From Methylobacterium sp. Leaf465 (lineage in GTDB: Bacteria; Pseudomonadota; Alphaproteobacteria; Rhizobiales; Beijerinckiaceae): a stretch of DNA of 64,000 bases. Within the stretch, counting starts at the first letter, position 1, and each line of letters opens with the position of its first letter. Location of the stretch: positions 89,608 to 153,607 of the forward strand of contig NZ_LMRA01000001.1 in assembly GCF_001424705.1 (NCBI RefSeq), written 5' to 3'. The notes below the pieces were generated by a model that had not been told where the DNA came from, searched no databases, and saw only the letters and a program-made list of their open reading frames with translations. The translations under genes and the position numbers were made by a program. Below are positions 26,147 through 59,230 of the stretch, in pieces.

Positions 26147-26384
26147 CCGTCATCCTCCTGTGAGGCCCTGCTCTGCCGCGGGGCCCTCGTCATTCGTCCC
26201 GATCGTCCGTCTATGGACCGACGATCCCGTGTCCGGCGATCACTCTCAACCCATTCCAACCTGAGAACGCAAGCGGCGCCAAGGTCTCGGGGGCAGCGGG
26301 TGACGATGTCGCGCGGGTCAAAAGGCAGTGCGCAGCGCCGCACGCCCGGTTGTCCACAACTGCGTGAGGCGCCACATCGGGATC

Positions 26385-27278
26385 ATGAGCCAAAGCGACG
26401 ACCGACAGCGGGATCTCATCGCCAGCCTCGATTTTCACGTCGAGGCCGGACTCGACCTCTTCCTCGACGAGGCGCCCCACGACCGCTTCTCGGAGGCCGA
26501 GGCGCCCGAGCCGATGACGGCGCCCCCCGCACGGCCCATGCCTTTGCGCGACGCGCCGGCCCCGCCGCGCCCACCCTTGCCCGGCGCCGGCATGGTCCTG
26601 GCCGATTTGCCCCAGCGCGGCGCGGCCCCGCCGCCGGCCCGGACCTTCGGCCAGTCGGCCGCGTCCAAGCCTGGGGAGGCGGCAGGCGATGCCCGTGCGC
26701 GGGCCCGCGACGTGCAGAGCCTCGACGAGCTGGAGGCGCTGCTCGCCGGCTTCGATGGTTGCCCGCTGAAATTCACCGCCAAGAACCTCGTCTTCGCCGA
26801 CGGCAATCCGGCGGCGAAGCTGATGTTCATCGGCGAGGCCCCGGGGGCCGACGAGGACCGCGTCGGCAAACCCTTCATGGGCCGTTCGGGCAAGCTTCTC
26901 GACCGCATGATGGCGGCCATCGGCCTCGACCGGACGAACGCTTACGTCACCAACATCGTCCCGTGGCGGCCGCCGGGGAACCGCAACCCGACCCCGCAGG
27001 AGGTCTCGATCTGCAGGCCGTTCATCGAACGGCAGATCGAACTCGCCGATCCGGACCTAATCGTTTGCCTCGGCAGCCCGGCGACGCAGGCGATCACCGG
27101 CACCAAGGACGGCATCTTGAAGGCGCGCGGTCGCTTCTACCCCTACCGCGTCGGGAGCCGCGAGATCCGTGCCCTGGCGACGCTGCATCCGGCCTATCTC
27201 CTGCGCCAACCGCTGCAGAAGCGCCTCGCCTGGCGGGACTTCCGGACCTTGCGCGCCGCCCTCGACGGGAAGGCCTGA
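26385..27278 (+). CDS. Uracil-DNA glycosylase, type-4-like, with an altered Fe-S site
   Basis: From ATG 26385 the product is 297 residues. About 95 residues are a Pro/Ala-rich extension, followed by the UDG catalytic domain. Motif 1 is FIGEAPGADEDRVGKPFMG and motif 2 is LHPAYLLRQP, both typical of family 4. The usual first Fe-S pair CxxC reads CPLK here, so one ligand is missing. Other candidate ligands remain in SICRPF and LIVCLG. The cluster may therefore be absent or differently held. The enzyme removes uracil from deaminated DNA. It is divergent from ETF-QO. Confidence 0.88.
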   Translation: MSQSDDRQRDLIASLDFHVEAGLDLFLDEAPHDRFSEAEAPEPMTAPPARPMPLRDAPAPPRPPLPGAGMVLADLPQRGAAPPPARTFGQSAASKPGEAAGDARARARDVQSLDELEALLAGFDGCPLKFTAKNLVFADGNPAAKLMFIGEAPGADEDRVGKPFMGRSGKLLDRMMAAIGLDRTNAYVTNIVPWRPPGNRNPTPQEVSICRPFIERQIELADPDLIVCLGSPATQAITGTKDGILKARGRFYPYRVGSREIRALATLHPAYLLRQPLQKRLAWRDFRTLRAALDGKA

Positions 27279-29488: not shown

Positions 29489-29612
29489 GCGCGCGCATAC
29501 CGTATTTTCGCGTAGCGCCAAGCCACCTCGCGGCGACGCAGAGGACGCAAATGGGTAGAAACGCAACACGACACGCGTTCTGCCTGAAATTTTTGCAGCG
29601 CCCCGAACGTTT

Positions 29613-29627
29613 GTTCATGATACGTTC
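29613..29627 (+). promoter_or_regulatory. LexA (SOS) box of alphaproteobacterial type
   Basis: GTTC-ATGATAC-GTTC matches exactly the GTTC-N7-GTTC direct-repeat operator established for LexA in alphaproteobacteria. It lies 31 bases before the radical SAM start codon. It overlaps the -10 of a possible promoter (TTGCAG at 29593-29598, CATGAT at 29616-29621). GAACGT/ACGTTC arms also form an inverted repeat here. Confidence 0.7.
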
Positions 29628-29657
29628 TCGTCCGATCCCAACGGATGAGCCTCGCCC

Positions 29658-30782
29658 ATGCCAGCAGACGCCACTCGCCCATCGTCCGCCGGCCCCACAG
29701 CTGCGCGACGCCTCGGCGAGACCACACCGCAGCCGATGGGGCGGCGGGGCAGGGGTGCCACAGCCAATCCGAGCGGACGGTACGAGGCGGCCCGACGGGA
29801 AACCTTCGACGACGGCTGGTCCGGCAACGAGGAGGCGGTCCCCGTCCGGACCGAGGTGCGGCCGGAGCATGCCCGCACGCTGATCACCCGCAACACCTCG
29901 CCCGACATCTCGTTCGATCGCTCGATCAATCCCTACCGCGGCTGCGAGCACGGCTGCGTCTACTGCTTCGCCCGTCCGAACCACGCCTATGTCGGCCTGT
30001 CACCGGGCCTCGACTTCGAGACCAAGCTGTTCCGGAAGGTGGGTGCCGGCGCTCTGCTCCAAGCGGAGTTGTCGGCACCGGGCTACCGTCCCGCCACCAT
30101 CGCCCTGGGCACCGTCACCGATCCCTACCAGCCGATCGAACGGGAGCATCGCGTCACCCGCGCGGTGCTGGAGGTCCTGGCGCGGTTCCGCCACCCGGTC
30201 GGCATCGTGACGAAATCGAATCTCGTCGTGCGCGATCTTGACCTCCTCACCGACCTCGCGCGCGACGGTCTCGTGAAGGTCGCGATCTCGGTGACCACCC
30301 TCGATCCCGTCCTGGCACGCCGGCTTGAGCCCCGCGCGCCGCATCCGCAAAAGCGCCTGGACGCGATCGCCCGCCTGAGCGCCGCGGGCATTCCCGTGAT
30401 GGTCATCGCCGCGCCGATCATCCCTTCTTTGAACGATCACGAGCTCGAGGCGATCCTCGCCCGGGCCCGGGGGCTCGGCGCCGTGGAGGCGAGCCACGTA
30501 CTCCTGCGCCTGCCGCTCGAACTCGATGATCTGGTGAACGACTGGTTCGCCGAGCATTACCCAGGTCGCCAGCGCCACGTCATGTCGCTGGTCCGCGCCG
30601 CGCGGGGCGGTAAGGCCTATGACGCCGCTTTCGGCACGCGGATGACCGGCACCGGCGCCTATGCCGACCTGATCCGCCAGCGCATGCGGCTCGCCCGGCA
30701 GCGCCTCGGCTATCCCGAAGTCCGTCGTCGCCTCCGCGTCGACCTGTTCAGGGTTCCGCGCGACCAGTTGAGCCTGTTCTGA
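29658..30782 (+). CDS. PA0069/SplB-like radical SAM protein
   Basis: The 374-residue protein is a radical SAM enzyme of the PA0069 group (COG1533, related to spore photoproduct lyase). The cluster-binding motif is CEHGCVYC at C96, C100 and C103. It lies in the conserved context SINPYRGCEHGCVYCFARPNHAY. The barrel continues through ALGTVTDPYQPIEREHRVTR and KSNLVVRDLDLL. The C-terminal GTRMTGTGAYADLI is also typical. The reaction is not known for this group. A LexA box 31 bases upstream suggests DNA-damage induction and hence a possible DNA repair role. The 3' end overlaps the convergent rnhB by 35 bases. Confidence 0.92.
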   Translation: MPADATRPSSAGPTAARRLGETTPQPMGRRGRGATANPSGRYEAARRETFDDGWSGNEEAVPVRTEVRPEHARTLITRNTSPDISFDRSINPYRGCEHGCVYCFARPNHAYVGLSPGLDFETKLFRKVGAGALLQAELSAPGYRPATIALGTVTDPYQPIEREHRVTRAVLEVLARFRHPVGIVTKSNLVVRDLDLLTDLARDGLVKVAISVTTLDPVLARRLEPRAPHPQKRLDAIARLSAAGIPVMVIAAPIIPSLNDHELEAILARARGLGAVEASHVLLRLPLELDDLVNDWFAEHYPGRQRHVMSLVRAARGGKAYDAAFGTRMTGTGAYADLIRQRMRLARQRLGYPEVRRRLRVDLFRVPRDQLSLF

Positions 30783-46338: not shown

Positions 46339-46469
46339 CGTCGGCGCCGGCACATTTGCGTGTGCCGGCTCCCGAGATGTCGGGAGGGCGAGGAAAAGCT
46401 CGACAGATCGGTTGACCATTCCTGACCTTCGGCCGCATGTTCCTGATATGTTCTTACTCAGGATCGCTT

Positions 46470-46688
46470 ATGCAGCCACGGTCCACCTCCACGCCTGCCT
46501 GGACTTCGCCTGCGGCGGCGATCGTGGCCGCCTACCTGGAAGAGGCCGGCGGCGATGCGGTTCTCGCGCTCCATCGCGCGGTGGCCGATGCCCTCACGGA
46601 CCTGTGCGAGGCCGAGCGCCGGACCCTGCGCCGGGATCGCCTCATCTCGCACGGCTACGTCCGGGGTCGGCCCGACCAGAACGATTAG
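46470..46688 (+). CDS. Small hypothetical helical protein
   Basis: The 72-residue product begins MQPRSTSTPAWTSPAAAIVAAYLEEAGG. A helix AVLALHRAVADALTDLCEAERRTLRRDRL and a basic C-terminus follow. The amphipathic helix is more ordered than chance, but no family is recognised and only a weak AGGA lies upstream. It could start 11 codons earlier. Coding is moderately likely. Confidence 0.45.
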   Translation: MQPRSTSTPAWTSPAAAIVAAYLEEAGGDAVLALHRAVADALTDLCEAERRTLRRDRLISHGYVRGRPDQND

Positions 46689-58870: not shown

Positions 58871-59230
58871 CGGTTTCGCTGCGGCGCACAGACCAAAAAA
58901 CAGGCGATTGGCTCGAAAAGGCCACACCGATGAACGGGTTGTGAACAGCCTCTCGCCAGCGTCGGAACCCTGTGTTAACACCCCGGCTGCCGTGCGAGGG
59001 GGGTGCCGATTCAGCGTGTTGCGGAGGTTTGAAAAACGTGGGTCACTGACTGGACAAGTCCGGTGACTTGCCCGAAACGCGCGATCGAACACACCGGCCG
59101 CTCCATCCGAACAGGTCGTCCCGGGACGGGACGGCGGCCACGGCACCTTCACCGACCTTCCACCAGCAAGTCTCTTCACCCACAAGATCCTTGCACCATC
59201 ACGACCTTGAAGAGCTAAGGACCAAGACCG
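58871..59230 (+). promoter_or_regulatory. Upstream region of acpP
   Basis: No gene lies in these 360 bases. A GTCAC...GGAC-AA-GTCC...GTGAC arrangement at 59042-59067 is a partly symmetrical palindrome and could be an operator. The last 15 bases before the ATG (TAAGGACCAAGACCG) contain an AGGA ribosome-binding site. acpP is normally expressed very strongly, so a promoter must lie here, but I could not place it with confidence. Confidence 0.5.

Follow-up and report, generated by a model that had tools for sequence, protein, structure and literature searches.

A probably SOS-controlled PA0069-family radical SAM protein of Methylobacterium sp. Leaf465 with a conserved C-terminal motif of the beta clamp-binding type

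In the window analyzed here, that is, the whole stretch of 64,000 nucleotides from Methylobacterium sp. Leaf465, a gene for a radical SAM protein is preceded by a predicted LexA operator, and the encoded protein ends in a pentapeptide that matches the consensus for binding to the beta sliding clamp (Table 1). SOS control of this gene is well supported by comparison of upstream regions across several lineages, as is documented below. Such control is already in print for this COG1533 gene, to which our box adds one more case; what appears to be new, judging from the passages and the limited collection consulted, is the conserved clamp-type motif at the C terminus of an SOS-controlled radical SAM protein. 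Based on these features and on the predicted fold, we consider it probable that the gene encodes an SOS-induced DNA-repair enzyme, a radical SAM protein with the fold of spore photoproduct lyase (SPL), that is tethered to the beta clamp.

Table 1. Positions (window coordinates) of the features discussed in the text
Feature	Position	Strand	Basis or remark
Predicted LexA (SOS) operator GTTCATGATACGTTC	29613-29627	+	Exact GTTC-N7-GTTC; conserved before orthologues
PA0069-family radical SAM protein gene, 374 aa	29658-30782	+	Frame; NF033668; PF04055; predicted fold
CxxxCxxC motif (C96, C100, C103), predicted [4Fe-4S] ligands	29943-29966	+	Cysteine in 57/57 aligned sequences
C-terminal QLSLF, matching the beta sliding clamp-binding consensus QL[S/D]LF	30765-30779	+	Conserved in orthologues
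LexA-type box GTTCCTGATATGTTC	46439-46453	+	Exact GTTC-N7-GTTC, 16 bases before ATG 46470
Unannotated 72-aa gene	46470-46688	+	Start 46470 chosen; longest frame starts at ATG 46437, at the box

The preliminary description of this DNA had reported an exact GTTC-N7-GTTC match before the radical SAM gene, and the match is indeed exact, although the distance from GTTCATGATACGTTC to the ATG is 30 bases and not the 31 given there. The further claim that the box overlaps a -10 element found no confirmation, as a sigma-70 scan of positions 29540-29700 recognized nothing promoter-like. From the window alone, the box does not stand out from chance, since three exact matches were seen where 1.91 are expected, and at least three were obtained in 30 of 100 shuffles. 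The third of these matches, GTTCACAACCCGTTC (58932-58946, minus strand), has a spacer unlike the conserved ones. Genome-wide (5.06 Mb), the exact pattern occurs 133 times (64 + 69) and a reversed control pattern 38 times.

The upstream regions of orthologues had been proposed as the place to look, and there the box is present far more often than in control windows, which places it beyond chance. Among the 74 same-family orthologues, 69 have an exact GTTC-N7-GTTC on the + strand within 450 bp upstream, and each of the other five has at least one box with a single mismatch. When the search is confined to 300 bp, the exact box is found in 66/74 cases versus 0/73-74 in each of five control windows. 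These loci derive from 80 same-family genomes, 76 of which gave a match, after removal of G000 and of G034 (a 65-residue fragment); one of the 74, L104, is partial. All upstream distances were counted from the position at which the alignment to the window protein begins, not from the start codon. A class-wide sample comprised 190 genomes, of which 92 have the gene over the cut-off; the subtraction of G000, G256, and two already counted same-family loci leaves 88 orthologues. An exact box lies within 300 bp of 74 of them and is absent over that distance in the other 14, the four control windows giving 0, 0, 1, and 0 of 86-88. A set of 80 named loci, which overlaps the family sample, has the exact box in 69 cases within 300 bp and in 75 within 450 bp; no count includes the loci L195-L222, which share members with earlier samples, or L255-L256, which are two additional ones from the genus. 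Boxes with at most one mismatch occur at 81/88 of the class targets versus 3 to 8 of the 86-88 control windows; for the family, where the control stretches span 480 bp, the number is 11/73. Since they are not rare in control stretches, one-mismatch boxes are weak evidence when taken singly. In one genome of the class sample, G144, the radical SAM gene is broken up into three separate matches, and one of them contains one TGA and one TAA; this copy is apparently a pseudogene or affected by sequencing errors.

Outside the Alphaproteobacteria, the box before the gene changes type. No GTTC-N7-GTTC was found in the 32 orthologues from other Pseudomonadota, whereas an exact CTGT-N8-ACAG lies upstream of 22 of these 32 loci, several of which come from the same genera, compared to 0/31-32 in each of four controls; within the 300 bp examined, the exact form is absent from the other 10. 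Among four actinobacterial relatives, counted without control windows, the exact box GAAC-N4-GTTC precedes the gene in two (Streptomyces and Nonomuraea) and a one-mismatch version precedes it in the remaining two. In the portion of PMC3323433 that concerns operators, these three LexA motif types are assigned to these same lineages, GTTC-N7-GTTC being the alphaproteobacterial operator. A single gene group is therefore associated with three operator types in lineages that have those LexA motifs, and the operator type thus appears to follow the LexA of the lineage. We conclude that the SOS control advanced in the preliminary description is well supported, since the box is conserved and changes type outside the class. 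A chance match, as the three window matches versus about two expected might have suggested, is refuted by the conservation upstream of orthologues (69/74, 66/74, and 74/88) together with the operator switch, and we assign it a negligible probability.

The source genome provides a setting for such control. A lexA gene is present at C8:25030-25776 (172.6 bits, cut-off 110.95), with two boxes upstream of it on the opposite strand (C8:24933-24958), and another box is followed, about 1.5 kb downstream, by a Y-family polymerase match (IMS_C) that we interpret as ImuB. The stretch examined at the recA locus contains no exact box. The window also contains, some 2.4 kb before the radical SAM gene, a gene for a family 4 uracil-DNA glycosylase (26328-27278, + strand; TIGR00758, 212.9 bits), before which the window scan gave no exact GTTC-N7-GTTC; SOS-regulated uracil-DNA glycosylases are mentioned in a passage of PMC8565304. 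Across the 190 genomes, the radical SAM gene and the SOS polymerase DnaE2 occur together in 74, the radical SAM gene alone in 18, DnaE2 alone in 13, and neither in 85, such that DnaE2 is found in 74 of the 92 genomes with the radical SAM gene (odds ratio 26.9 overall). Among the 95 genomes of 2.5 Mb or more, the corresponding numbers are 74, 9, 7, and 5, and the odds ratio is 5.9 (p 0.015). The link to DnaE2 is largely one of genome size.

A second box of the window, GTTCCTGATATGTTC, precedes what looks like an unannotated, genus-restricted family of small SOS genes. At the thresholds applied, Pfam, NCBIfam, and PHROGs gave no match to the 72-aa protein, whose family has the core ALxxAIxDALxDLxEAERRTxxRxRLISRGYVRG. 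Members are present in 40 of the 41 genomes of the genus, source genome included, often in several copies, and none was detected at E 0.001 in 95 other alphaproteobacterial genomes. An exact box precedes 19/19 orthologues, versus 0/19 in each of five control windows, and 18/19 further copies, the last of which has a box with one mismatch. Altogether, 37 of the 38 copies read have the exact box; the sample consisted of 19 loci plus 20, from which L380 was dropped for want of a BLAST match, and many further copies lie outside the count.

The radical SAM protein itself belongs to the PA0069 family, as it matches NF033668 with 505.6 bits (cut-off 360) over profile positions 1-348, and it also matches Radical_SAM PF04055. 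Its nearest named relatives are four Methylobacterium loci with 78-81 percent identity. The second-best NCBIfam model, NF038135 (Rv2578c family), gave 207 bits and remains under its cut-off of 430, and a phage search returned three weak partial matches only. The preliminary description had assigned the gene to a SplB-like group related to SPL; this holds for the predicted fold, which is nearest to SPL, and fails for the family, as the protein is a member of NF033668 and not an SPL. The structure, predicted from 57 aligned sequences (alignment A1, which includes 56 of the 80 named loci), has a mean pLDDT of 73.5 and a pTM of 0.74, and is poor in a portion of the cluster loop, residues 97-121 (pLDDT below 50). 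With this model, Foldseek placed SPL first (E 1.9e-7), and among the Foldseek matches VIA-align 2 also ranked SPL first (Z 17.2, rmsd 3.5 over 258 residues), followed by NifB (Z 14.6). The likeness to SPL rests on the fold, because a plain protein search of PDB sequences gave six matches, all with E 0.48 or worse, and a profile search gave 12 weak ones, some of them to radical SAM proteins and none to SPL.

Is the protein then an SPL? Such an identity, or that of another photoproduct-repair enzyme, is implied by the splB label that the authors of PMC3323433 gave to the gene, and SPL (PDB 4fhc and its mutants), likewise a radical SAM enzyme, is indeed the closest solved fold. However, the two proteins share 12-17 percent identity only, and the structural alignment ends at model residue 357, with the tail of the window protein lying beyond it. 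SPL requires a cysteine, C140 in 4fhc numbering, which is named in the titles of the PDB mutants and has no counterpart here: apart from the three cluster ligands C96, C100, and C103, the window protein contains no cysteine, and no further cysteine column is invariant among the 57 sequences. We therefore reject a true SPL, and the SPL mechanism cannot be assumed. No SPL model is present among the five NCBIfam matches either, nor SPL among the 12 PDB profile matches, and the spore photoproduct is a lesion that forms in spores. We thus hold the reading as an SPL or a photoproduct-repair enzyme to be very improbable.

The lack of the SPL cysteine, which implies chemistry different from that of SPL, and the identity of the next structural neighbors, the cofactor and peptide enzymes NifB, SuiB, and lipoyl synthase, could also be taken to mean that an SOS-controlled, clamp-bound enzyme directs its radical chemistry at a protein, an RNA, or the nucleotide pool at the fork. 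Against such a substrate stands the fact that SPL, which acts on a DNA lesion, is the best match over 258 residues by a clear difference in Z score (17.2 versus 14.6), as well as the general composition of the SOS response, whose genes are mostly DNA-repair genes. We regard a substrate other than DNA as unlikely. Action on DNA is the reading that we prefer, and the DNA-repair role put forward in the preliminary description is favored by the SPL-like predicted fold and by the clamp-type motif at the C terminus.

In the part of PMC3716654 that describes beta clamp-binding motifs, the consensus is given as QL[S/D]LF, with the central residue the most variable, and such motifs are said to be more usual at protein termini. 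The QLSLF of the window protein fits this description. In alignment A1, Q370 and L373 are each found in 57/57 sequences, all of which have F or L at position 374, whereas the neighboring positions 365, 366, 368, and 369 vary widely. The tail was then surveyed in 162 alphaproteobacterial orthologues, 156 of which have their stop codon inside the stretch read. The pattern Q[LMFIY]x[LF][FLI] occurs within the last 12 residues of 143 of these 156, the strict QL[SD]LF being present in 46, compared to an average of 0.9 and at most 5 for shuffled tails. Fifteen internal windows gave no match, and only two were found anywhere before the last 12 residues; both are QLNLF, 26 residues from the ends of L041 and L046, which have a 21-residue extension. 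Six more orthologues have a hexapeptide form, which we take to be a clamp motif as well, and all forms together bring the proportion with a clamp-type motif near the end to 151/156. The other five comprise two that keep a looser QADLF and three without any motif. Two loci, L097 and L098, end in QADLFETAA in place of the usual motif and have a one-mismatch box too; together with L041 and L046, they offer natural variants for assessing the tail. The conservation of tail and box in part reflects shared descent, although the residues just before the tail vary freely.

Clamp-type tails are also encountered beyond the class. The looser pattern QxxL[FLIW] is present in the last 8 residues of 31 of the 32 orthologues from other Pseudomonadota (mean 0.4 and maximum 3 in shuffles), the remaining one ending in QMGLDF, and the tight pattern is matched by only 15 of the 32. 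Relatives from the Actinomycetota have the tails QLTLL, QLRLL, QEPLF, and QESLF, and one from the Gemmatimonadota ends in QLSLGI; the motif is absent from a shorter Paenibacillus relative. The Rv2578c family (NF038135, Actinomycetota) resembles the window protein in that four actinobacterial relatives end in clamp-type motifs, two of them behind an exact LexA box of the Gram-positive type, and differs from it by an identity of about 36 percent and by the type of the box. The tuberculosis Rv2578c gene is presumably SOS-regulated, and we take both PA0069 and Rv2578c to be members of experimental LexA regulons.

Many SOS proteins are degraded from their C termini, and the QxxLF could accordingly be a degradation tag, or else a structural element, in which case SOS control would be the only real part of our proposal. 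In the predicted structure, which is of moderate confidence, the placement of residues 361-370 is fairly confident (mean pLDDT 85), in agreement with a structural element, and the mean drops to 52 for residues 371-374. However, the tail fits the clamp consensus and is seen again in other phyla, where the linkers before it are unrelated, and additional residues follow the motif in 21 of the 143 orthologues. A C-terminal degron is disfavored by these 21 cases and by L041 and L046, in which QLNLF is kept before the extension. Hence, we consider a role as tag or structural element to be distinctly unlikely, even more so than a non-DNA substrate, and retain the reading of the tail as a clamp motif. 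In this respect the window protein would resemble the translesion polymerases, which share the SOS context and, as illustrated in PMC3716654 by UmuC (QLNLF) and Pol II (QLGLF), usually have the clamp-type motif at the C terminus; it differs from them in being a radical SAM enzyme and not a polymerase. A Y-family (IMS_C) polymerase of the source genome ends in QLGLGL.

The box with its conservation and its lineage-dependent type, the family, the cluster motif, the predicted fold, and the conserved tail are observations; our working model, which is as follows, adds by inference that LexA binds the box and that the gene is induced, that the protein binds the clamp and acts on DNA, and by what chemistry it does so. 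In undamaged cells, LexA bound to the box would repress the radical SAM gene. Upon damage, RecA filaments formed on the DNA would trigger the self-cleavage of LexA, and the gene would be expressed with the rest of the SOS regulon. The predicted [4Fe-4S] cluster held by C96, C100, and C103 would split S-adenosylmethionine, and the resulting radical would act on a DNA lesion. Like translesion polymerases, the protein would dock on the beta sliding clamp, its C-terminal QLSLF entering the peptide-binding cleft, which would in this way deliver the enzyme to stalled or repairing replication sites. A broader proposal is that the PA0069 and Rv2578c families are both loaded on the clamp via a C-terminal QLxLF and induced by the SOS response in several phyla through different LexA operators, their substrate being a lesion outside the reach of the known direct-reversal enzymes; we offer this extension tentatively, as a possibility that falls a little short of probable.

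Several earlier reports bear on this gene group. LexA control of splB was predicted in 2012 for alpha- and betaproteobacteria with several chromosomes (PMC3323433), and regulation of splB was not observed in gammaproteobacteria in that study, unlike here, where an exact CTGT-N8-ACAG precedes the radical SAM gene in an Aeromonas record. Later, PMC8565304 (2021) treats, in one of its passages, the SOS regulation of SplB (COG1533) in several species as known, and according to an excerpt of PMC7739468, the LexA networks of Gram-positives and Balneolaeota include a radical SAM protein. The splB of these accounts (COG1533; LexA regulon in alpha- and betaproteobacteria, Bacteroidetes, and others), as far as the relevant passages describe it, shares with our gene the group label and the LexA box upstream. 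It differs in that the same passages make no mention of a clamp-binding tail and describe either a photoreactivation or SPL-type enzyme or, in general terms, a radical SAM protein. A full-text search of a limited collection gave no article joining radical SAM with a clamp-binding motif, a wider one gave two articles with unrelated titles, and none was obtained that joins PA0069 with radical SAM.

In the passages of the cited papers that deal with it, the only basis on which a function has so far been deduced for the family is its resemblance to spore photoproduct lyase. If our proposal is correct, the protein would be a radical SAM enzyme recruited by the clamp, a combination for which the limited full-text searches gave no article with a related title. 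Together, the clamp-type tail and the SOS control suggest both a place and a time of action for this family, namely, the replication clamp and the period of DNA damage.
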